A DNA stretch of 22,911 nt from a virus: positions 1 to 22,911 of IMG/VR virus record IMGVR_UViG_3300031951_020399. One strand, written 5' to 3'. Below, in pieces: positions 1,755 to 12,545 of the stretch. How positions within the stretch are numbered: the stretch's first letter is position 1; every line of letters begins with the position of its first letter. The notes under the pieces were generated by a model. It made no database searches. It was not told the DNA's origin and worked only from the letters and a program-made list of their open reading frames with translations. The translations under genes were made by a program, and so were the position numbers.

Positions 1755-1758
1755 TATT

Positions 1759-1769
1759 GGTGTAATAAT
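1759..1769 (+). promoter_or_regulatory. GGTGTA-motif variant in the gap before the holin-like gene
   Basis: The sequence GGTGTAATAAT sits in the 32-bp gap after the serine protease stop, 28 nt before the next ATG. It matches the GGTGTATTAT element found in the three other true intergenic gaps except for T to A at the seventh base. The TAATAA-like part could be a -10 box. No convincing -35 is visible. It is proposed as a phage promoter element only because of the recurrence. Confidence 0.35.
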
Positions 1770-1786
1770 AACTATGGAGAAATACA

Positions 1787-2113
1787 ATGATTAAACCTGG
1801 TTATAGAACAAGTGAGTTTTGGTTTACTTTAGTAAGCTTTATTTTTAGTGGAGCTTATTTATTTGGAGTATTAGATGATTTCAATCAAAAAGAAGATTTA
1901 ATACAAGAAACAAGTAAAGGAGTAGAGGCAGTAATATTAATCATTGGTCAATTAACATTATTGTTTAGATACATAAAAGGAAGAGCAGATCTTAAAAAGA
2001 CTTGGTGGAATACAGCAACTCCAGAAGAGAGAAAAACGGTCGTTAAAAGGAACTCTCCTAAATCTAAAGCTAAAAAGAAAGTTAAAAAATCAATTCAGTC
2101 CAAAGTAAAGTAG
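1787..2113 (+). CDS. holin-like small membrane protein, two TM segments
   Basis: The 108-residue product has two hydrophobic segments (about residues 11-28 and 47-61), separated by a short acidic loop, and a strongly basic Lys-rich tail. This is the usual architecture of small phage holins. Such proteins form inner-membrane lesions that time lysis. GGAG lies 8 nt before the ATG, so the start is well supported. It opens a series of small membrane genes leading to a papain-like protease, so a lysis role is sensible. No specific holin family signature is decisive, and a structural or superinfection-exclusion membrane protein is possible. Confidence 0.5.
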   Translation: MIKPGYRTSEFWFTLVSFIFSGAYLFGVLDDFNQKEDLIQETSKGVEAVILIIGQLTLLFRYIKGRADLKKTWWNTATPEERKTVVKRNSPKSKAKKKVKKSIQSKVK

Positions 2114-2138
2114 ACAGTCTTGGTCGGTGTATTATAAT
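2111..2138 (+). promoter_or_regulatory. candidate promoter with GGTGTATTAT motif (motif at 2126-2135)
   Basis: In the 59-bp gap before the next gene there is TAGACA (2111-2116) and TATAAT (2133-2138) with a 16-nt spacer, close to a bacterial sigma-70 promoter. The shared GGTGTATTAT element overlaps the -10 side. This is the copy that looks most like a standard promoter. The first two bases of the -35 overlap the stop codon of the holin-like gene. Confidence 0.45.
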
Positions 2139-2172
2139 ATATAGGGTGTTTTTTCAAAAAGGATATTCTTTT

Positions 2173-2613
2173 ATGCCAGAAGCAGCTTCGATAGATTCTA
2201 TAAAAATACAAATGGATGGTTTTATTACACAGGTTAAAATCTCTTTAGGCGAAGTTAAATCTGTTGCTATATCTCAGGCTTGGAAAATATTACAACTTGC
2301 AGTTGCTGAAACTGTGCAGGTTTTAGAACAAAATTCTGGAGATTTAACAGGACCAGATAAAAAAACCATAGCTATGGATTATTTATCAAAATTTTATGAT
2401 AATGTTTTTGTTGTTATAGACGTGCCTATGGTTCCAAGCTTTATGCAAATAATTATTCGTAAATATATCAAAATATTCTTAATGGCACTGGTTAGCTCCA
2501 GCATTGATGCTATGGTAACAACCTTTAGACAAGTTGGAGTTTTTCCATCAAAAACAACAGTAGTTTCACAATCAATCAAACCCAAAGCTAAAAAAACGAG
2601 GAAAAAGAAATGA
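2173..2613 (+). CDS. hypothetical small phage protein with hydrophobic C-terminal half, 146 aa
   Basis: A longer frame begins at a GTG at 2146. The ATG at 2173 is preferred because AAAAGGA sits about 10 nt before it, while nothing comparable precedes 2146. The product has an amphipathic N-terminal half, a GPDKKTIAMDYL segment, and one or two hydrophobic stretches (about residues 77-110). It ends in a Lys/Arg-rich tail like that of the upstream holin-like protein. I do not recognise the family with certainty. The shared basic tail and position suggest a partner in the same membrane-associated module. Its stop overlaps the next start (ATGA). Confidence 0.6.
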   Translation: MPEAASIDSIKIQMDGFITQVKISLGEVKSVAISQAWKILQLAVAETVQVLEQNSGDLTGPDKKTIAMDYLSKFYDNVFVVIDVPMVPSFMQIIIRKYIKIFLMALVSSSIDAMVTTFRQVGVFPSKTTVVSQSIKPKAKKTRKKK

Positions 2614-2993
2614 ATTATACAGAAAGTTTCGATCAATTTGCTAGCAGAGTAACGCCAACAGATCTAGCTCTATATGCAGGAGTTGGCATCATATTATGGA
2701 TTCTATTCAAAGATAGACTAAGCCCTGTTCAAAAATTTTTAGGAGATATGGTTGGTGGATTAAAGTCCAAACTAAACCATGGGTCGTCAGTTGTCCCTGT
2801 TGTTGTTCCAGATGTTGCTCCTGTTGCCGTGTCCAAAGAAAGTAAAGAAGACAATTTCTTTAAATTAGTAGTTTCTTGGAAACAAACCAGAGATTTAGCA
2901 GTTAAGAGCGGATGCGAAGAGGCCGTTAAGGTTGCTGATCAGATGTTTCCATTCTTAAGTCCAACCGTTTGCTCAAAGGAAAAAAGTGTATGA
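2610..2993 (+). CDS. single-TM small protein, 127 aa
   Basis: The ATG overlaps the TGA of the preceding gene (ATGA). The protein has one hydrophobic segment at about residues 19-35 (ALYAGVGIILWIL), then a Val/Pro-rich linker (VVPVVVPDVAPVAV). The C-terminal soluble region has two cysteines about 23 residues apart. This is a membrane-anchored layout with a flexible spacer, as seen in many phage spanin-like or accessory lysis proteins. There is no lipobox and no nested reading frame typical of two-component spanins. Function unknown. Confidence 0.6.
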   Translation: MNYTESFDQFASRVTPTDLALYAGVGIILWILFKDRLSPVQKFLGDMVGGLKSKLNHGSSVVPVVVPDVAPVAVSKESKEDNFFKLVVSWKQTRDLAVKSGCEEAVKVADQMFPFLSPTVCSKEKSV

Positions 2994-3490
2994 ATCCCAA
3001 ACTTAAAACAGGTCTCTTGATACTTGCTCTTGCCCTATTAGGTATTGGAATACTAAAGCCTGATCTTGGTTTTATTAATAAGGCAGTATCGCCATCGGCT
3101 GTTGTTGAATTAGATGTTAAAGAGCCTGAGTCACCAGAACTAAAAGAAAAAGCTGATGCTGTAGTTAAGGCTTTGTCTGTAGATTCTGATCGTAAAACTG
3201 ACGGGTTGCGATTAGCCTATTTGTATAATGATATGGCAACCTTAGTTGGTCTTGATGGAGATGATGAGATTATTAAAAATACTGAAGAAATTAGACAAGC
3301 TAATAGATTAGTTGGCTTAATGCTAAGGTTAGATATTAAAGGAAAATATGAGGACCTCCCAGAGTCTGCTCAAGCATTGGTATTAACGGCTATTGGCGAT
3401 GATAATGTTTTATTAACTAAAGACCTTAGAGATAAAGCTGTTGAGGGCTTTAAGGCTTTATCCTGGGCCTGTTTACAAGGAAGCAAATAA
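2990..3490 (+). CDS. membrane-anchored or exported hypothetical protein, 166 aa
   Basis: The frame extends upstream to a TTG at 2969, but the ATG at 2990 is the likely start. It overlaps the upstream TGA (ATGA) and AAAGGA lies 9 nt before it. The N-terminus is MNPKLK followed by a 15-20 residue hydrophobic stretch, which is a signal anchor or signal peptide without a clear cleavage site. The remainder is acidic and helical (residues about 45-160). Family not recognised. It is directly upstream of, and overlaps by one base, the papain-like protease gene, so it may be a membrane partner, inhibitor or substrate of that enzyme (inference). Confidence 0.6.
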   Translation: MNPKLKTGLLILALALLGIGILKPDLGFINKAVSPSAVVELDVKEPESPELKEKADAVVKALSVDSDRKTDGLRLAYLYNDMATLVGLDGDDEIIKNTEEIRQANRLVGLMLRLDIKGKYEDLPESAQALVLTAIGDDNVLLTKDLRDKAVEGFKALSWACLQGSK

Positions 3491-4416
3491 TGCCAAGATA
3501 TTCACCACAAGAATTATACGATAATTATCGCAATGGTTTTAGCGGCTGTCTTTGGGAAGAGCATGTTTTTAATCATTTAATGGAAAATAGTAAATATCCA
3601 TTATTCGGAGATGCTAGTAAAAAAATTAAAAGCAGCGGTAAGGGTAAACTGTCAACACCGTATAAAAGTGTGTTAAAATTTGAAAAAAGTCCTTATAATG
3701 AAAGACAAACAACAGGAGATTGTGTATCTCACGGAACACGAAATGCTTGTGATGTTAGTCGAGCAGTAGAAATAGATGTTAATGGAGAGAAAGAAGCTTG
3801 GATAGCAAAAGGAGCAACAGAAGCAATTTATGGCGCTCGTGGTCACGGCGGAGAAGGAATGAGTTGCTCTAGAGCAGCCGAGTTTGTAAGCAAAAATGGC
3901 GGAATATTGTTACGCCAAAACTATAAAGGTATAGCAGACTTTACTAAATATAATGGTAATTTGGGCGCCGGATGGGGCGCCAGAGGACTACCAGATAAAG
4001 TTATTGACGCAGCAAACGATCATCAGATTAAAACAACTAGTTTAATACGAACCGTAGAAGAAGCACGAGATGCTCTAGCTAATGGTTATGGATTAGCAGT
4101 ATGTTCTAATTATGGGTTTAGTAATAAGAGAGATAAAAAAGGAATAGCTAACACTAGCGGTAGCTGGGGCCATTGTATGGCTTGGATAGCATGTGATGAT
4201 ACAGGAAGTGAGCCATTATTTTTGGTCCAAAATAGTTGGGGAAAATGGAATGATGGAGGCCATCCAGAATGGGGGCCTATACCAGACGGCAGTTTTTTAA
4301 TACGAGCCGACGTAGCAGCAGGGATGCTTTCACAAAATGGAAGTTATGCGTTTAGTAATTTTGACGGATTCCCTGTACAAAAGCTACCATCTTACGGTTT
4401 TGAAGACTATCTATAA
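3490..4416 (+). CDS. papain-like (C1 family) cysteine peptidase
   Basis: The 308-residue protein carries the ordered papain-fold motifs: Gln73 and Cys78 in RQTTGDCVSHG (oxyanion Gln and nucleophile), His228 in GSWGHCMAW, and Asn248 in LVQNSWGKW. The late aromatic/glycine pattern (WGPIPDGSFLI) also fits. All catalytic residues are present, so it is probably an active protease. There is no signal peptide. The start overlaps the previous stop (TAATG). It lies among small membrane proteins where an endolysin would be expected. Possible jobs are degradation of a host envelope protein during release, head/tail maturation, or shut-off of host proteins. The first is favoured by context, but nothing in the sequence proves it. 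Confidence 0.85.
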   Translation: MPRYSPQELYDNYRNGFSGCLWEEHVFNHLMENSKYPLFGDASKKIKSSGKGKLSTPYKSVLKFEKSPYNERQTTGDCVSHGTRNACDVSRAVEIDVNGEKEAWIAKGATEAIYGARGHGGEGMSCSRAAEFVSKNGGILLRQNYKGIADFTKYNGNLGAGWGARGLPDKVIDAANDHQIKTTSLIRTVEEARDALANGYGLAVCSNYGFSNKRDKKGIANTSGSWGHCMAWIACDDTGSEPLFLVQNSWGKWNDGGHPEWGPIPDGSFLIRADVAAGMLSQNGSYAFSNFDGFPVQKLPSYGFEDYL

Positions 4417-4446
4417 TATAGTAGCCTAAAAGCTAACCTTAAGTTT

Positions 4447-4456
4447 GGTGTATTAT
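4447..4456 (+). promoter_or_regulatory. GGTGTATTAT motif, candidate promoter element
   Basis: An exact copy of GGTGTATTAT lies in the 63-bp gap between the cysteine peptidase and the next small gene, 33 nt before its ATG, and is followed by an AT-rich TATTTATACC. The TATTAT half could be a -10 box. No good -35 lies 16-18 nt upstream. Confidence 0.4.
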
Positions 4457-4479
4457 ATTTATACCTTTAGGGTTATACT

Positions 4480-4674
4480 ATGAAACTATTAGATAGAATT
4501 GCTTTAAATAATTTTTTACGCATAATAAGATCGCTTATTATACGAATGGTTGATTTTTTTGAAAAACAAAAAAAACCAATCAAACCAGTGCCAAAACCAA
4601 AGCCCAATAGGCCGCGACCTTTGAAAAATATAATAGACCTGATTCCTGTTCCATGGAGAACAAAAGATGAATAA
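4480..4674 (+). CDS. small basic Pro/Lys-rich protein, 64 aa
   Basis: The product has an amphipathic N-terminus with Arg-flanked hydrophobic residues, then a repetitive KPKPNRPRP-type segment (about residues 31-48). The Pro/Lys pattern suggests an extended linker that could cross the periplasm or bind nucleic acid or polyanions. No family recognised. The ribosome binding site is weak (a TTTAGGG about 8 nt before the ATG). The stop overlaps the next start by 8 nt, so the two are probably coupled. Confidence 0.5.
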   Translation: MKLLDRIALNNFLRIIRSLIIRMVDFFEKQKKPIKPVPKPKPNRPRPLKNIIDLIPVPWRTKDE

Positions 4675-5014
4675 ATTACTAATACCGATGTTAGCTGCTG
4701 CTATGCTATTCGGCTCATATGGATATCATGGATCAACAACATCTGCCGTGACTCTTGTTGGCGGTATTGTCAAAGCCCAGCACACAGAAAGTGTTAAAAA
4801 ATATAAACGCAAAGATTGTCCGGTATGCAAGGGTACTGGTTATTATATTAGTGGAGATAAAATTACAAAAGTAAATTGTGGATATTGTATTCCTGAAAAA
4901 AGTGATGCTCCTAAAAATCAATTACCCCGAGAATATCCTAAAGTAATAGTTCATCCTCCTGTGACTATTCAACAAAATTGTCCTAATGGCGTTTGTCCAA
5001 TCCCTAAAAAATAA
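4667..5014 (+). CDS. exported protein with a DnaJ-type CxxCxGxG motif, 115 aa
   Basis: The N-terminus (MNKLLIPMLAAAMLFGSYGY) looks like a signal peptide with no lipobox. The mature part has CPVCKGTG (Cys51, Cys54), followed by CGYC (Cys71, Cys74), the spacing of one DnaJ-type zinc-binding half-repeat, and near the C-terminus a second pair in CPNGVC (Cys105, Cys110). In DnaJ the CxxCxGxG repeats bind zinc and unfolded protein in the cytosol. Here the motif is on a small, probably exported protein, so it may bind metal or form disulphides in the periplasm. It shares the small-gene cluster with the papain-like peptidase. Function unknown. Confidence 0.65.
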   Translation: MNKLLIPMLAAAMLFGSYGYHGSTTSAVTLVGGIVKAQHTESVKKYKRKDCPVCKGTGYYISGDKITKVNCGYCIPEKSDAPKNQLPREYPKVIVHPPVTIQQNCPNGVCPIPKK

Positions 5015-5024
5015 AGGTTTAAAA

Positions 5025-5423
5025 ATGGACGATAATCTTAAAGAAAAACTAAAAACCATAGCAGAAAAAGTGTTGAAACAAGCAAATGTACCAAATGATG
5101 AAAAATTTGGTAGCGTTATTGCAGTTTTAATGATGATTAGCATTATTCTTACAGTAATTAGAGTACTACAAGAATGCAATAAAAATAAAACAAAAGATAT
5201 GACAGCTGAAAATAAGTATGCTATATACGGTGCTAATATTAGAGAATTTAGTAAAAAACGTGGTTGGTTTACTAGACTAAGAATTAAAAGAATTCTAAAA
5301 AGAGAACTAACTAAAGACGAATATAATACATATGGTATAAAATTGACAGAAGCATTGTTAGACGTAGGAGAAAATCTCAAGGATGATGAAGTAGTAACCC
5401 TCGTGGAGGCAGCAAATGTTTAG
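5025..5423 (+). CDS. single-TM hypothetical protein, 132 aa
   Basis: The frame is open from an ATG at 4986 inside the preceding gene, but the ATG at 5025 has AAAGG about 8 nt upstream and avoids a 29-nt overlap, so it is chosen. The protein has a charged N-terminal helix, one hydrophobic segment at about residues 28-47 (VIAVLMMISIILTVIRVL) and a basic cytosolic-type C-terminus. Not recognised. It overlaps the GlsB-like gene downstream by 8 nt and is probably co-translated with it. Confidence 0.55.
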   Translation: MDDNLKEKLKTIAEKVLKQANVPNDEKFGSVIAVLMMISIILTVIRVLQECNKNKTKDMTAENKYAIYGANIREFSKKRGWFTRLRIKRILKRELTKDEYNTYGIKLTEALLDVGENLKDDEVVTLVEAANV

Positions 5424-5667
5424 TATATTAATCTGGTGTGTATATGGTATTTTTGTAGGCAGTATAGCCAAGAGCATAGTGCCTGGAGAAGAAAATTTTG
5501 GTTTTGTTAAAACAGTAGCACTAGGAGTATGTGGCTCCTACATGGGTGGAGCACTATTATACTTACTGGGTAAGTACGAGTCGGTGTCTCCTGCTGGATT
5601 GTTCATGGGAGTCGCCGGTGCTGTTCTAGCATTGGTGCTTTATAACAAACTACAAAAGAAAATCTAA
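5416..5667 (+). CDS. GlsB/YeaQ/YmgE-like (transglycosylase-associated) small membrane protein
   Basis: The 83-residue product has three hydrophobic segments with Gly-rich packing: FVGSIAKSIVPG, then an FG turn, then GVCGSYMGGALLYLLG and AGLFMGVAGAVLALVLY. This matches the Pfam Transgly_assoc pattern (AGxIAxxI..G...FG...GxxGAxxGG). Family members are small inner-membrane stress or envelope proteins of unclear activity; the family name does not imply enzymatic activity. In a phage membrane-gene cluster it may serve in lysis or membrane remodelling. Its reading frame ends just before the coding signal of the giant glycosyltransferase in the +1 frame; see the separate entry. Confidence 0.65.
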   Translation: MFSILIWCVYGIFVGSIAKSIVPGEENFGFVKTVALGVCGSYMGGALLYLLGKYESVSPAGLFMGVAGAVLALVLYNKLQKKI

Positions 5668-5668
5668 A

Positions 5669-5815
5669 AATAAATTAGCCATATCCGTATATCTATACCA
5701 TCTGGATCTATGGCCAGAAATATGCTCATTATTAAATAATATTAGTCAATCATATACTCTGTACGTTGGACTATGTGAAGATACTACTTATAAAAATATA
5801 GAAGAATATATTTCT
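5669..5815 (+). other. in-frame N-terminal extension of the RgpF-GT gene without a standard start codon
   Basis: Reading the glycosyltransferase frame backwards from its first TTG (5816), the frame stays open to a TAG at 5627. The translated stretch is protein-like: KLAISVYLYHLDLWPEI, then SYTLYVGL, leading directly into the NYGGDIAPFL motif. In RgpF-type proteins the domain normally starts with such an (I/V)AV-H-Y-DLW segment, so these roughly 48 codons are very probably coding. No ATG, GTG or TTG is in frame here; only ATA (5642, 5681) and CTG (5702, 5759) exist. Expression may use a rare start, a +1 frameshift from the GlsB-like gene, or the assembly may contain an indel in the A-rich run 5654-5674. 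Confidence 0.6.
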
Positions 5816-8800
5816 TTGTCTTTAACCAAAAGACCCGATATTGTTTTTACATATCACAAAAACTATGGAGGAGACATAGCGCCGTTCCTCCATCATATCT
5901 CTATAATCAAAGAACCGCTATTTATTAAATTGCACACAAAAAAATCTGTGCTAGGCAACAATAATCAAATCAATTGGAGATATGTGTGCTATCACGACCT
6001 GATAGGATCAGAACAGATAGTAGCACAAAACATTAAAGATATACAAAAATCAAATGCTGGACTTTTATGCAATAGTAACTTTCTATTTGACGCTCAAGAA
6101 CTAGCTCATTCCAACAAAATTAAAAAATTATCTCAAATTTTACACTTAAATTATGATGCCGTGAAAAATAAACCATTCCCAGCAGGCACCATGTTTATGG
6201 GGAAAACACAGATATTCAAAAAATACTTTACTAAAGCTAAAATTAATAAAATACAAAAATTGCTTAAATTAGAATCTGGTAAAGTTAACGAAGATTCGGT
6301 TAGTACATATTGTCATTCTTTGGAAAGAATTTTTGGATATATAATATCTGCATATAAAAAACAAATAATTCATCCACAACACACTGTTGTTAAAGTTATC
6401 AATAAAAAATCTGATACTGGATACTTTGAGCTGATTGTAATGAACAACAATGAATGCTACATTAAAGACTATATAAATACTTATGGTAGGATTTTAGAAA
6501 CTCATGATAAATACATATTGATACAATGGTTGCATTTGGATGGTCCAAATTTTCAAAAATACCAATTTTTAGATGATAATACAATTATTCAAAATGATCA
6601 CTATTACTGGGAACTCTCGTCCAGCACAAATGAAATATTAAAAAATTCTATGCCAGAAGATTTTGATTATATGCAATATCTCAAATACAATCCGGATTTG
6701 ATAGCCGGAGGAGCAATATCAGAACATGCATGTATAATGCACTATGGTTTCTTTGGATATAAAGAAAATAGAATTTATAGTGATTCTGTTATTAGAAACA
6801 AATTACCAATAAATTTTAACCCTAAAATATATAAAATACTTAACTTAGATTTATCTGATTTGTCTGATGAAGAAGCATCTAAGCATTATGTGTTTCATGG
6901 AGTTGCCGAGCATAGAAGATACACTACTAATGTATCAGATGAAAAAATACTTAAAGCATATAATATAACATATGATAAAAAATATGACAAATATAGAAAT
7001 CGCTGTGTTGTATTTATTAACCATGAAACTTCTGCAACTGGCGCTCCTATATTTTTAAAAACCTTTGTTCAAGACATATTAGATAAAAAACTTTTTGAAA
7101 ATGTGGTATTTATAGATGCTCATCCGTCGCAAGATTTTGATCCAATAGACAACTGTTTGTGGCTATATCACTTTAATGACAAGGACAAGCTATACAAAAT
7201 ACTACAGCAATTAAATCCGATACTTATTTATTCAAATTCTACAAATATATATGTAAAAAATATTCATGATATGCAGCCATTTCTACATAAAACCGTATTT
7301 CATTTTCATGAAACTTTTGAGGATTTAAAAAATTTCGTAGATTACTCTAATAAAAATAAGTTTGATGGATTTTTAAGTTTTATAGAAAATAATCAAAAAT
7401 ATTTTCCTGCTCAAGCTATTATTGATGATATTCAATATTATAATAAAACTGATAATATAGAATTATTTCCACCTTACATATCTTCAAAGAAAACTAAAAA
7501 GATATTACAAAATAACAGAGTACAGTCTGGTAAAAACAAAAAAATTACAGTTGGTATGTGTGGTATCATTTCCGAAAGGAAAAACTTTACATTATTTAAA
7601 CATATTGCTGAAAATAATCAAAATATAAATTTTGTTTGGATTGGTGATGATAAAAATACTTTTATAGAGAATAAACCAAAAAATCTACTAATTATTCCTC
7701 AGACAAATAATCCGTATAAAGAATTAAATAAATTAGACTATTTTTTTCTCACTAGCAAAAGCGATCCGTGTCCAATTGTTGTTTTAGAGTCCCTATTATT
7801 GAATAAAAAAATCATAGTCTTGGATAATAATATTAAATACGATCATTCTGATCAAGATCTAGAAAATTATTTAGTTATAAAAAATCATAATAACAATCCT
7901 GACATAATTCTAAAAAAATTCAATCAGCTTAAATTAAATAATCGTAAAAATTCAACTCTTAAAAATCAAAAATATATTTTACACAATTTCAATAAGCCGC
8001 GTATTCTACAAAAACCAGCGCAGAATAAAACTGATAATATCTTGTTGTCTTTTTTTGCTAATACAAACTATGAATTTGATAGTAATTATTTTGTTAACTT
8101 AATCAATCAAAAATTACTTTTTTCAGAAAAAAGAAGTTATAACGTAACAATAGCAATCACAGGTGACGATAAAACACTTATATCAAAAGCTAAAAAAGAA
8201 TTAAGTAAAATTCATTCAGATTGTATATTTATTGATCGTCCTAATGTAGGCAGAGACATTGGGGGATTATTAGATATGTATAAGTTATTAATAGAAAATA
8301 AATCTATTAATAAAAACTCTTACATATTATATATTCATAATAAATATAATTTAATATGGAGAGAAGAATTAGTTAAAATTATGTATAATAATTATTATTA
8401 TAAATATAATACTACAATTAGTAATAATTTCTTCATTGACTGTGACGCCAATGACATGAATCGGCAAAGAATGAAAACTGACAAGATAATGTGTAAAATT
8501 TATAATAAAAATTTTCAATATATTGGTGGAACTATGTTTATTACTCAATTTAATAATCTTAAGCCTTTATATGATAACTATAATTATTTTTATAATAATC
8601 TTACTACAATAGATAAAAATGATACATTTTGGACAAATGCTATGATCAATAAGTCTGTTTTTGACGAAATATACCATTCAACATCTGGTCACTGTTTGTG
8701 CAAACAAATGGATTACTCTTCCAGAGATACCGTAATAAGTAATGGTATTAAAAATTCTATTGAGCTTGAAACAGGCTACAACAAATTAGGCATACAAGAC

Positions 8801-8875
8801 TTACAATACGAGCACGCGTTAGAAAGATATATCGGATATCTAATTAGTCATCAAAAGAAAACTTTAACAGTATAA
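5816..8875 (+). CDS. giant multidomain glycosyltransferase: RgpF-like / GT-B (GT4-like) / RgpF-like
   Basis: From the first standard start (TTG) the product is 1019 residues; the true N-terminus probably lies about 48 codons upstream. Domain order by eye: an N-terminal RgpF-like region with NYGGDIAPFL (residues 16-25), HTKKS (40-44) and a PAGTMFMG segment near 123-128; two copies near residues 282-385 of the short module found between glycan-enzyme domains (YLKYNPDL...HYGFFGYKENR, then a diverged HYVFHGVAEHRR); a GT-B/GT4-like core at about 395-730 with GMCGIISERKN, WIGDD and the acceptor/donor signature DPCPIVVLESLL; and a second RgpF-like domain from about 740 with NVGRDIGGLL, IHNKYN and GGTMFI. 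RgpF proteins act in rhamnan-type surface polysaccharide synthesis. The protein probably builds or alters a host surface glycan or decorates a virion protein. Exact sugars cannot be inferred. A GT2 gene follows two bases downstream. Confidence 0.75.
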   Translation: MSLTKRPDIVFTYHKNYGGDIAPFLHHISIIKEPLFIKLHTKKSVLGNNNQINWRYVCYHDLIGSEQIVAQNIKDIQKSNAGLLCNSNFLFDAQELAHSNKIKKLSQILHLNYDAVKNKPFPAGTMFMGKTQIFKKYFTKAKINKIQKLLKLESGKVNEDSVSTYCHSLERIFGYIISAYKKQIIHPQHTVVKVINKKSDTGYFELIVMNNNECYIKDYINTYGRILETHDKYILIQWLHLDGPNFQKYQFLDDNTIIQNDHYYWELSSSTNEILKNSMPEDFDYMQYLKYNPDLIAGGAISEHACIMHYGFFGYKENRIYSDSVIRNKLPINFNPKIYKILNLDLSDLSDEEASKHYVFHGVAEHRRYTTNVSDEKILKAYNITYDKKYDKYRNRCVVFINHETSATGAPIFLKTFVQDILDKKLFENVVFIDAHPSQDFDPIDNCLWLYHFNDKDKLYKILQQLNPILIYSNSTNIYVKNIHDMQPFLHKTVFHFHETFEDLKNFVDYSNKNKFDGFLSFIENNQKYFPAQAIIDDIQYYNKTDNIELFPPYISSKKTKKILQNNRVQSGKNKKITVGMCGIISERKNFTLFKHIAENNQNINFVWIGDDKNTFIENKPKNLLIIPQTNNPYKELNKLDYFFLTSKSDPCPIVVLESLLLNKKIIVLDNNIKYDHSDQDLENYLVIKNHNNNPDIILKKFNQLKLNNRKNSTLKNQKYILHNFNKPRILQKPAQNKTDNILLSFFANTNYEFDSNYFVNLINQKLLFSEKRSYNVTIAITGDDKTLISKAKKELSKIHSDCIFIDRPNVGRDIGGLLDMYKLLIENKSINKNSYILYIHNKYNLIWREELVKIMYNNYYYKYNTTISNNFFIDCDANDMNRQRMKTDKIMCKIYNKNFQYIGGTMFITQFNNLKPLYDNYNYFYNNLTTIDKNDTFWTNAMINKSVFDEIYHSTSGHCLCKQMDYSSRDTVISNGIKNSIELETGYNKLGIQDLQYEHALERYIGYLISHQKKTLTV

Positions 8876-8877
8876 AC

Positions 8878-9675
8878 ATGAATAAAATAGAAATCATATC
8901 ATGCGTCAAAAATGAAGAAGAATTTATAAGATCATTCATAGAGTATCATAGTCAAATTGCAGATAAAATAACAATCATAGACAATGGCTCTACAGATAAT
9001 ACTTTAAATATAATTAATAAATATTTTAAGAATAAAATAAAACTTATTACATATTTAAATGATTTTGAACATAAGGGACAGATATGTACCAATGTTATGA
9101 AAGAATCAGATTGTGATTTGCTTATACCATTGGATGCCGATGAATTTTTGGTATACGACTATGGGATTAGAGTTGATGATAATCCTAAAATTGTCAAAAA
9201 ATATTTCCAGGATTTGCCCATCACAGGTAATAAATATAAAATAAAAAACGTATACAATCAAATAGGGAAAAGCAATCGTTACTCTTTGGATAAAACATAT
9301 AATTCTAGTAAAATGATTTTTCCCAAAAACGGATTCGTAGAAACAGACTGTGGATTTCATTTTGGGAAAGTAGAACTAGACAGCATCGAGCCAAAAATAA
9401 TCAACTTAGATATATCTCATTTACATTTACATTTTTATTCAAAGGCCAGATGGCTAAAAAGCTGTAATCAAAAACTAAAAGCTAGACTCAAAGAAAAATT
9501 TAATGATTTAAATACTATTGCAGAATTAGCAGGAACAAAACACAAGTCACACCATATAGCAAAGGAAATGATATATTATATTGCAACTAATCGATGGTAT
9601 AATTTAAAACACGATGCTTCCTTTGAAACTCCCTACTTGACTTCTCTTCTCCAAAGAGATATCATACCTCTATGA
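8878..9675 (+). CDS. GT2-type glycosyltransferase (Glyco_tranf_2_4-like), 265 aa
   Basis: The N-terminal half has the GT-A nucleotide-sugar fold signature: EIISCVKNEEEFI, then IIDNGSTDNT (Asp35-Asp40), and the metal-binding DAD in PLDADEF (Asp86-Asp88). The KNE..F...EYH pattern before it fits the Pfam Glyco_tranf_2_4 group. No membrane segments are seen, so it is probably cytosolic. The gene follows the giant RgpF-GT gene with a 2-nt gap and overlaps the dCMP deaminase start by 4 nt (ATGA), so the glycan genes and nucleotide metabolism genes are co-transcribed. It likely works with the upstream enzyme on the same glycan (inference). Confidence 0.85.
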   Translation: MNKIEIISCVKNEEEFIRSFIEYHSQIADKITIIDNGSTDNTLNIINKYFKNKIKLITYLNDFEHKGQICTNVMKESDCDLLIPLDADEFLVYDYGIRVDDNPKIVKKYFQDLPITGNKYKIKNVYNQIGKSNRYSLDKTYNSSKMIFPKNGFVETDCGFHFGKVELDSIEPKIINLDISHLHLHFYSKARWLKSCNQKLKARLKEKFNDLNTIAELAGTKHKSHHIAKEMIYYIATNRWYNLKHDASFETPYLTSLLQRDIIPL

Positions 9676-10139
9676 GACCACTATGGACAGATTATTTTCT
9701 GGGGTTGGCTAAAGTTGTTTCCCAACGAAGCCACGATCTTCAAACACAGCATGGCTGTATAATAACAGATAATAATAATCGTATTTTGGGTGTCGGATAT
9801 AACGGATTTGCAAGAGGACTAGACGACAAACAACTACCAAAAACACGACCAGAAAAGTACCCATGGATGATTCATGCCGAACGAAATGCTTTATCTAATT
9901 GTGTGGTTAGGCCAGATAACGGCATAGCATATGTTACCGGTCAATGCTGTAATGATTGTATTATGGCCTTATGGCAAGAAGGAGTAACTAAGGTTTTTAT
10001 GGCTGATGATCACGGAACAAAATTATTTGACCAAGATGCAAAAAAAAGATTTGATACATTTGTGAATATGAGTGGTATAGAAATTTTTTATATCAAACCA
10101 AATCTTTCTTGGCTCAAAGATCTGTGTGGTGTATTATGA
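9672..10139 (+). CDS. dCMP deaminase (cytidine/deoxycytidylate deaminase family)
   Basis: The enzyme converts dCMP to dUMP, the substrate for dTMP synthesis. The 155-residue protein has the zinc site: HAERNA with His68 and Glu70 (ligand and proton shuttle), and Cys93 and Cys96 in the QCCNDC segment. The N-terminal HGCIITDNNNRILGVGYNGF is typical of phage and bacterial dCMP deaminases. The usual PCxxC is CCNDC here, so the Pro before the first zinc cysteine is replaced by Cys92; the two cysteine ligands themselves are kept. It overlaps the GT2 gene and is followed by a tiny ORF and the ribonucleotide reductase. No thymidylate synthase is visible in the window. Confidence 0.9.
   Translation: MRPLWTDYFLGLAKVVSQRSHDLQTQHGCIITDNNNRILGVGYNGFARGLDDKQLPKTRPEKYPWMIHAERNALSNCVVRPDNGIAYVTGQCCNDCIMALWQEGVTKVFMADDHGTKLFDQDAKKRFDTFVNMSGIEIFYIKPNLSWLKDLCGVL
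10128..10137 (+). promoter_or_regulatory. GGTGTATTAT motif at the end of the dCMP deaminase gene
   Basis: An exact copy of the intergenic motif falls here inside the last codons of the deaminase (Gly-Val-Leu-stop) and is followed by a very AT-rich stretch (TTAATATATTATATATCG). It lies 147 nt upstream of the ribonucleotide reductase ATG and 8 nt before the start of the 45-codon ORF. Because it is coding, the match alone is weak, but its place ahead of a major gene agrees with the other copies. Confidence 0.25.
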
Positions 10140-10273
10140 ATTCATTAATATATTATATATCGTGTGCGATATATTTCTACAACAGGTGGTTTCATGGTAG
10201 CTCGGACACTACAGATTTTTCTTTTCAAACCGCCGTCTTAATAGGCATAATTGTAATTTTAAATAGGAGATAA
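10136..10273 (+). CDS. tiny membrane ORF, 45 aa
   Basis: The 135-nt space before the ribonucleotide reductase is filled by one open frame. Its ATG overlaps the deaminase stop (ATGA), and its TAA ends one base before the next ATG, which is exactly the packing used by neighbouring genes. The peptide has an aromatic N-terminal part (SLIYYISCAIYFYNRW) and a hydrophobic C-terminal segment (TAVLIGIIVIL) ending in NRR. That gives one or two short membrane segments. The AGGAGA for the downstream gene lies in its last codons. No homologue is recognised. The fit at both ends is the main reason to call it. Confidence 0.5.
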   Translation: MNSLIYYISCAIYFYNRWFHGSSDTTDFSFQTAVLIGIIVILNRR

Positions 10274-10274
10274 T

Positions 10275-12464
10275 ATGTCGGCCCTTCAAGAACTTCAGAA
10301 CTATACATTTGTTAGTAAATATGCTCGTTGGATAGAAGATAAGAATCGCAGAGAAACATGGAAAGAGGCTGTTGATCGTGTTAAAAACATGATGCACACA
10401 CAGTATCCTGAAGCAAAAGAAGATATTGATTGGGCATATGATATGATGTATAAGAAGAAGGTTTTAGGAAGCCAAAGAGCCCTCCAATTTGGCGGAGATC
10501 CGATTCTAAAAAGACACGCCAAAATATACAACTGCACAAGTTCGTATTGTGATCGCTTAAGATTTTTTCAAGAATGTTTTTGGTTACTTCTTTGTGGTAG
10601 CGGAACAGGATTTAGTGTTCAAAAGCACCATGTTGCCAAATTACCAACACTAGAACATGACCTTCCAGACAATAATGAAGGAGTAAAGTATGTAATAGAA
10701 GATAGCATTGAAGGTTGGGCTGATGCTTTAGGTGTTCTATTAAGTTCTTACTTTAGCAAACCTATTGAAGAATTTAAAATGTACAAGAACACTTATGTTG
10801 TATTTGACTATTCTAATATTCGATCAAAAGGATCATCTTTAGCGAGCGGTGTTGGCAAAGCTCCAGGATTTGAACCACTACAAAATGGATTAGAAAAAAT
10901 ACGAACATTACTTGATCGTTGCATAGCAAATAACCAAAAGAAGCTTCGTCCAATTGATGCTTATGATATTGTTATGCATAGTAGTGATGCTGTTCTAAGT
11001 GGAGGCGTTAGACGTTCTGCTAGTTTAGCACTATTTAGCCACGACGATGAAGAAATGGCAAAAGCCAAAACTGGCAATTGGTATATTGACAATCCTCAAC
11101 GAGCACGAAGTAATAACTCCGCACTTTTGCTAAAAGAAGAAACAACATTTGAGGAATTTAAAACACTCATGGAGAGTGTTAAAGAGTTTGGTGAGCCAGG
11201 ATTTATATGGAGCGACTCAACAGAGATGACTTTTAATCCTTGCGTAGAAGTTGGTATGTGGCCAGTAGATGAAGAAACTGGTAAAAGCGGATGGCAAGGA
11301 TGCAATTTGTCTACCATTAACTGTTCATCAATTGAAGACGAAGATGACTTTTACGAGAGATGCAGAGCCGCTGCTATAATAGGAACTTTACAAGCTGGTT
11401 TTACCAAATTAGACTATCTAGGAGAAACTAGTTGTCGAATCTTTGAAAGAGAAGCTCTATTAGGAGTATCTCTAACTGGAACAATGGAAAAGCATGACTT
11501 AGTACTTTCTGAAAAGGTTTTACGCAATGGTGCTAAAATTGCTGTAGAGACCAATAAAGATATAGCCAAAAAAATCAAAATCAATCAAGCGGCCAGAGTA
11601 ACTTGTTTAAAACCAGAAGGCACTAGTAGTAGTATGCTTGGTACAAGTTCGGGTATTCATCCGCATCATGCCAAACGATATATTCGCCATGTACAGGCCA
11701 ATGTTTTAGAAGCTCCATATCAACACTTTAAGAAAGTAAATCCACAAGCATGTGTAAAGTCTTCTTGGTCAGCCAATAATACTGACGAAGTTATAAAATT
11801 CCCTATAGAAGTGCCAGATGGTGCTAAATTAAAGAACCAATTACCTGCGGTAGAAATGCTCTCTGTTGTTAAAGACACACAAAAGAATTGGGTTCAAAGC
11901 GGCAAAAACAGATCATTATGTACACAAGATTATTTAAGTCATAATGTGAGTAATACAGTAACCGTTAAGCCAGATGAATGGGATGATGTTACAAAGTATA
12001 TTTATGATAATAGAAAATATTTTGCTGGAATAAGTTTGATTCCTCAAAGTGGAGATAAGGACTACCCACAAGCGCCATTCACTACTGTTTATACCAGCCG
12101 CGAAATTGTTAAAGAGTATGGAGATGCTGCATTGTGGTGCTCAGGACTAATTGAATTAGGACTCAATGCTTTCAATAATAATCTATGGGCAGCATGTGAT
12201 TATGTTAGTATGAATCAAGCCAAAGATAATGATAGTCAGGACAAACTATTGTTCATGACAAAGATGAAAAATTTTGCTGGAAAATATTTTGATAGTGATC
12301 TTAGGCGTTTAACATATTGCATGAAAGATGTTTACAACTGGAAAATCTATTGTGATCTTTATAATAGTTTTAAGAAAGTAGACTATACACAACTTCTAGA
12401 AAATGAAGACAATACTGCTGGGATAGAAGAAATTAGTTGTGCTGGTGGAGCGTGTTTATTATAG
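10275..12464 (+). CDS. nrdJ: class II (adenosylcobalamin-dependent) ribonucleoside-triphosphate reductase, monomeric type
   Basis: The enzyme reduces ribonucleotides to deoxyribonucleotides for phage DNA synthesis, using coenzyme B12 to generate the thiyl radical. The 729-residue length and motifs fit the monomeric Lactobacillus leichmannii RTPR type. Cys87 (YNCTSS) and Cys343 (GCNLSTIN) form the redox pair; Cys323 and Glu325 in NPCVEV are the radical Cys and catalytic Glu; Cys722 and Cys727 in CAGGACLL are the C-terminal shuttle cysteines. LLLCGSGTGFSVQ and LIPQSGDKDYPQAPF are further family landmarks. No intein or intron is present, judging by the normal length. AGGAGA 5 nt before the ATG gives a strong ribosome binding site. 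No R2 subunit or activase gene is needed or seen. The host must supply cobalamin. Confidence 0.93.
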   Translation: MSALQELQNYTFVSKYARWIEDKNRRETWKEAVDRVKNMMHTQYPEAKEDIDWAYDMMYKKKVLGSQRALQFGGDPILKRHAKIYNCTSSYCDRLRFFQECFWLLLCGSGTGFSVQKHHVAKLPTLEHDLPDNNEGVKYVIEDSIEGWADALGVLLSSYFSKPIEEFKMYKNTYVVFDYSNIRSKGSSLASGVGKAPGFEPLQNGLEKIRTLLDRCIANNQKKLRPIDAYDIVMHSSDAVLSGGVRRSASLALFSHDDEEMAKAKTGNWYIDNPQRARSNNSALLLKEETTFEEFKTLMESVKEFGEPGFIWSDSTEMTFNPCVEVGMWPVDEETGKSGWQGCNLSTINCSSIEDEDDFYERCRAAAIIGTLQAGFTKLDYLGETSCRIFEREALLGVSLTGTMEKHDLVLSEKVLRNGAKIAVETNKDIAKKIKINQAARVTCLKPEGTSSSMLGTSSGIHPHHAKRYIRHVQANVLEAPYQHFKKVNPQACVKSSWSANNTDEVIKFPIEVPDGAKLKNQLPAVEMLSVVKDTQKNWVQSGKNRSLCTQDYLSHNVSNTVTVKPDEWDDVTKYIYDNRKYFAGISLIPQSGDKDYPQAPFTTVYTSREIVKEYGDAALWCSGLIELGLNAFNNNLWAACDYVSMNQAKDNDSQDKLLFMTKMKNFAGKYFDSDLRRLTYCMKDVYNWKIYCDLYNSFKKVDYTQLLENEDNTAGIEEISCAGGACLL

Positions 12465-12491
12465 AACAATTTTTAAACTTATACTTATAAA

Positions 12492-12521
12492 GGTGTATTA
12501 TTTGTGTAGTATTTTAATACT
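12492..12521 (+). promoter_or_regulatory. GGTGTATTAT motif (12492-12501) plus small inverted repeat in the gap before phoH
   Basis: The 81-bp gap between the reductase and PhoH holds an exact GGTGTATTAT copy 54 nt before the TTG start. Right after it is AGTATT-TT-AATACT (12508-12521), a 6-bp inverted repeat with a 2-nt centre that could be an operator or a chance AT-rich palindrome. No copy is found in the following 10 kb, so this could be the promoter of the long replication operon. Confidence 0.4.
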
Positions 12522-12545
12522 CCTTATATAAGAAAAGGGCACACA

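Follow-up and report, generated by a model that had tools for sequence, protein, structure and literature searches.

Five copies of a GGTGTAT motif in a metagenomic phage sequence are probably middle or late promoters read by the host RNA polymerase carrying a phage-encoded σ factor. With moderate confidence, we further propose that the motif and the factor form an undescribed promoter-σ pair, in which GGTGTAT, lying at the −10 position, would suffice as a promoter for a divergent, cysteine-rich (possibly metal-binding) σ70-family factor; the pair would have arisen independently of T4 gp55 and would control head, lysis, and nucleotide/replication genes in a widespread uncultured lineage. Such a pair would allow early genes to be told from middle/late ones, and hence transcription to be mapped for the first time, in a widespread phage group whose genes are mostly unnameable and for which the collections searched contain no cultured relative. 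Moreover, it would make late genes recognizable without homology, offer a specific σ-promoter combination, and suggest that T4 is not the only phage line to have reduced a late promoter to a −10 element, the second line using a different σ factor.

Five motif copies in the window

The window, i.e., the whole stretch of DNA analyzed here, comprises 22,911 bases of the IMG/VR record IMGVR_UViG_3300031951_020399, with 33% GC and all evident genes on the plus strand; compared with the phage collection, it gave no close match. A first-pass annotation had noticed a shared motif, GGTGTA(T/A)TA(A/T), in the four intergenic gaps longer than 30 bp and once where the dCMP deaminase gene ends, and had proposed a phage-specific promoter. 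The sites, with their scores in a position weight matrix (PWM), and two associated genes are as follows.

1759 to 1768, plus strand: GGTGTAATAA, predicted to drive the small membrane-protein gene at 1787 to 2113; PWM score, 11.9
2126 to 2135, plus strand: GGTGTATTAT, predicted promoter of a holin-like gene and the genes following it (2173 to 4416); PWM score, 15.6
4447 to 4456, plus strand: GGTGTATTAT, predicted to drive the genes clustered from 4480 onward; PWM score, 18.4
10128 to 10137, plus strand: GGTGTATTAT, within the 3′ end of the dCMP deaminase gene and overlapping the ATG of the 45-codon open reading frame (ORF), predicted promoter of the reductase; PWM score, 14.8
10136 to 10273, plus strand: 45-codon ORF for a small membrane-type protein, with similar ORFs in most listed relatives
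10275 to 12464, plus strand: ribonucleotide reductase (class II type, by Pfam and phage homologues), downstream of the 10128 site
12492 to 12501, plus strand: GGTGTATTAT, predicted to drive the PhoH gene and the subsequent replication block; PWM score, 13.6

The holin-like gene has a weak PHROG holin match, and the gene after the 12492 site is PhoH by Pfam. We confirmed the exact 10-mer at 2126, 4447, 10128, and 12492 and found zero exact copies on the minus strand. The copy at 1759 fits GGTGTA(T/A)TA(A/T) but is not the one-base variant it had been called, as it differs from the 10-mer at two positions. The distances from motif to next start (28, 47, 33, and 54 nt for 1759, 2126, 4447, and 12492, respectively) agree with the claimed 28 to 54 nt, and the claimed absence from the following 10 kb holds, with zero sites downstream of 12,546.

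A PWM trained on relatives only ranked exactly these five sites highest in the window, with a clear drop thereafter (next plus-strand score, 9.5; best minus-strand score, 9.4). Markov shuffles contained a mean of 1.8 and a maximum of 7 such sites on both strands, so the bare count is only mildly unusual. It is the location that is unusual, because four of the five sites fall in gaps making up 1.0% of the window (probability of at least four of five in gaps, 5e-8). Two gene calls underlie this list of gaps: conservation in relatives shows that the 45-codon ORF behind the deaminase gene is real, whereas the coding status of 5668 to 5815, an open frame running into a 1019-aa gene without a usual start codon, is a judgement. 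The 1019-aa glycosyltransferase-type ORF (5668 to 8875) is open and coding-looking upstream of its first usual start (5816, TTG), which leaves an unusual start, a frameshift from the preceding gene, or a sequence error as options. A TAGACA-N16-TATAAT match does exist at 2111 to 2138, where the first-pass annotation had seen a possible promoter, but such matches are equally common in shuffles (68 versus 66.8).

The motif is upstream enriched and oriented in relatives

Scanning viral contigs once with the ribonucleotide reductase and once with a papain-like peptidase yielded about 156 related loci on contigs of 6 to 244 kb. Nine whole records were used for motif training and four were held out, with genes called by a codon-model script. 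The records are metagenomic, possibly incomplete, and mutually related, so the counts are not independent events. Over the approximately 156 loci, GGTGTATTAT occurred 161 times on the coding strand and 0 times on the other, compared with 22 and 1 for the reversed sequence. Genome-wide, however, the exact 10-mer is too strict, with 0 to 6 copies per record. In the nine relatives, no 6-mer was more enriched upstream of genes than GGTGTA, which was found in 108 of 525 upstream regions with 5 expected and 11 for its reverse; it again ranked first in the four held-out relatives (46 versus 3.9 expected). Fitting gave the consensus [A/G]GGTGTAT with an A/T run after it and without an upstream element.

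At a PWM threshold of 11, site densities per 10 kb in the nine relatives were 25.3 upstream, 0.60 in sense coding, and 0.22 in antisense coding sequence; the corresponding values in the held-out relatives were 15.5, 0.60, and 0.17. The genome-wide comparison of gaps with genes and of the two orientations, which had been suggested as a check, returned an upstream-enriched, oriented motif in whole relatives, with low intragenic and antisense densities. The identical pipeline recovered TATAAATA from T4 as a positive control. Chance or base composition is ruled out by the orientation, the upstream enrichment, the held-out genomes, and a codon constraint described below. A literature search for the stand-alone word GGTGTA alongside phage and promoter returned no paper, and the occurrences of the exact 10-mer, among the matches listed, appeared unrelated by title. 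GCCGAT and GTCGAT(A) were also enriched upstream of genes in the relatives, in forward orientation and in some cases right after a −10 box.

GGTGTAT occupies the −10 position and excludes host-type promoters

The second enriched signal upstream of genes was the host-type TTGACA-N16/17-TATAAT, with sharp spacing. The two promoter classes were never seen in one upstream region, with 14.4 such cases expected, and 301 of the 525 upstream regions fit neither class. The TAT of the motif begins at a median of 43 nt before the start codon, compared to 41 nt for the σ70 −10 element (P = 0.35) and 64 nt for the σ70 −35 element (P = 1e-17); for most sites, the distance to the start codon varies between 25 and 56 nt. 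TTGACA showed no preferred spacing before GGTGTA, and the TTGACA 16 to 18 bp upstream that characterizes σ70 promoters was not found. GGTGTAT is a single −10-like element without a −35 element.

The two classes serve different genes. Conserved core genes accounted for 76 of 113 genes served by GGTGTAT versus 5 of 67 in the TTGACA class (P = 2e-16). GGTGTAT serves the portal, holin-like, PhoH, and reductase blocks; the motif was found at 26 of 54 loci upstream of the portal gene, with σ70 promoters at 0, and at 27 of 50 loci upstream of the gene after it, with a classical promoter at none. TTGACA promoters serve small, poorly conserved genes, largely in one block, which is the usual look of early genes. 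The motif was conserved at the places orthologous to all five window sites, namely, in 51% of 75 relatives for 1759, 31% of 49 for 2126, 88% of 25 for 4447, 71% of 78 for 10128, and 42% of 59 for 12492. Most of the window's other 24 genes have no orthologous upstream motif, and the rest have it in ≤11% of relatives. The proposal of a phage-specific promoter is thus supported, with the refinement that copies are spread over both arms of whole genomes, head genes included. Since the motif precedes both nucleotide-metabolism and head genes, middle and late timing appear indistinguishable by sequence.

The copy at 10128 may have a second role

The homologues of the 45-codon ORF lie between the deaminase and reductase genes, end mostly in LNRR, and are joined by an ATGA stop-start overlap. 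The C-terminal Gly-Val of the deaminase is encoded by GGT GTA in 78 of 78 relatives that have this ending, whereas codon usage predicts about 11%; the adjoining Cys and Leu codons vary among relatives. Because it overlaps the ATG of a conserved ORF and places GGTG at ribosome-site spacing, the 10128 copy may also serve as the ribosome-binding site of this small ORF. Among 13 relatives, GGTG stands at this spacing, eight bases before ATG, at 49 of 2353 ATG starts, versus 4 for GGAG, and possibly represents a second type of ribosome-binding site. The best matches of the reductase in the phage collection are about 47% identical, and none of its relatives were found in bacterial or archaeal genomes. 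Neither this search nor that of the window in the phage collection pointed to a host.

The relatives encode a divergent σ factor

Relatives encode a protein of 209 to 231 aa with σ70 region 2 (Pfam PF04542, Sigma70_r2). Its gene, located outside the window, was detected in 17 of 18 records with a profile of its own that includes some of these records, and it is missing from one large, possibly incomplete record. Matches to σ families are weak, with E values of about 1e-5, and the structure prediction is of moderate confidence (pLDDT, 74; pTM, 0.43); σ factors dominate the Foldseek fold matches, yet with E values above 0.04. The protein carries the conserved stretch RPLENFLWTHVRNRLFNYKR, invariant cysteines, and a helical C terminus. 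In L211:7096-7773 and its relatives, a cysteine-rich stretch after region 2 has four invariant Cys residues and is possibly metal binding. The gene after the σ gene weakly matches a D5-like transcription regulator. The σ operon itself is preceded by σ70 promoters at 58 of 103 loci, against a background of 6%.

A phage-specific promoter used through a phage σ factor, one of the options in the first-pass annotation, is the reading that the relatives support best, and we infer that the factor described here is the one that recognizes GGTGTAT. This reading is favored because the motif is upstream specific, oriented, at −10 distance, without a −35 element, exclusive of the host-type class, and conserved, and because the clade encodes a σ factor. 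In the proposed mechanism, host σ70 would transcribe the early genes, including the σ operon, from TTGACA-N16/17-TATAAT. The phage σ would then replace the host σ on the host core RNA polymerase, and the new holoenzyme would initiate at GGTGTAT upstream of head, lysis, and nucleotide-metabolism/replication genes. The promoter would be a stand-alone −10-like element made of [A/G]GGTG, TAT, and A/T-rich DNA, with no −35 element, and start sites are predicted approximately 7 nt after the hexamer.

T4 late promoters, which are used by the short phage σ gp55 with gp33, the gp45 clamp, and the host core polymerase (PMC2988020), resemble this scheme in having a phage-encoded short σ with region 2, a −10-like element without a −35 element, late genes as targets, and the host core polymerase. 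The systems differ in consensus (TATAAATA, which the pipeline recovered from T4 only, versus [A/G]GGTGTAT plus an A/T run in the clade) and in that the clade motif also precedes nucleotide-metabolism genes. The late-σ family phrog_234 did not match three clade σ factors scanned alongside T4 gp55, which itself matched at an E value of 2.9e-69, nor did it match a fourth. The gp45 clamp (PF02916) was found in 0 of 8 records in a search in which no control gave a match, and the cluster profiles likewise lacked a T4 gp45 match; they also gave no match to T4 gp33, though gp33 is poorly conserved. A T4-like phage was considered and rejected, as matches of the cluster profiles to T4 proteins were few and included no virion genes.

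Alternative readings of the motif

The sites might instead be read by host σ70, possibly in a modified polymerase, as extended −10 promoters without any phage σ. As in that promoter type, a TAT(A/T)AT-like hexamer is closely preceded by TG and no −35 element is needed; the hexamer fits TATAAT at ≥5 of 6 positions in 61 of 143 sites, and site 2126 is additionally accompanied by TAGACA at a spacing of 16 bp. However, GGTG abuts TAT directly rather than with a one-base gap, the last hexamer position is not fixed (T in 51% of GGTGTAT sites versus 97% in the clade's own σ70 promoters), and the two classes exclude each other and differ in the genes they serve, which makes host σ70 alone an unlikely reader. 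An activator box upstream of a σ70 −10 element, like the MotA box of T4 middle promoters, would accord with the D5-like regulator match next to the σ gene. Nonetheless, no second −10 element was found at a fixed offset downstream of GGTGTAT, and the motif lies at −10 rather than −30 distance from start codons; this reading is very improbable and was rejected.

Single-block, AT-rich promoters near the start site are known for phage-encoded RNA polymerases, and GGTGTAT is similar in form to those of the φKZ/AR9 type. Its consensus is nevertheless different from that of AR9 early promoters, which contain AAATATATATTAT (PMC5312081). Furthermore, the β subunit of multisubunit RNA polymerase (PF00562) was found in 0 of 12 large records but in 14 of 14 control genomes; a T7-like polymerase (PF00940) was found in 0 of 12 records in a search without a working control. 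We rejected the φKZ type and give a phage-encoded polymerase in general even less chance than an activator box. The least probable reading is an RNA-level signal for ribosome binding or processing, or a partly chance pattern. The ribosome-site spacing of GGTG in 49 genes and the overlap of the 10128 copy with an ATG point toward it, while the distance and variable spacing of most sites, together with the T-A part and A/T run that ribosome binding leaves unexplained, argue against it; held-out genomes exclude chance.

Apart from the promoters, the relatives showed unusual genes. Giant ORFs of 5,000 to 6,000 aa are present in G001 (99161 to 117121) and other relatives, and in two of these (G005_48 and G007_16) they lie directly downstream of GGTGTA sites. 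The phrog_405 DNA polymerase model is split over two ORFs (L163:14958-16829 and L163:17711-19336), with two called genes between them.
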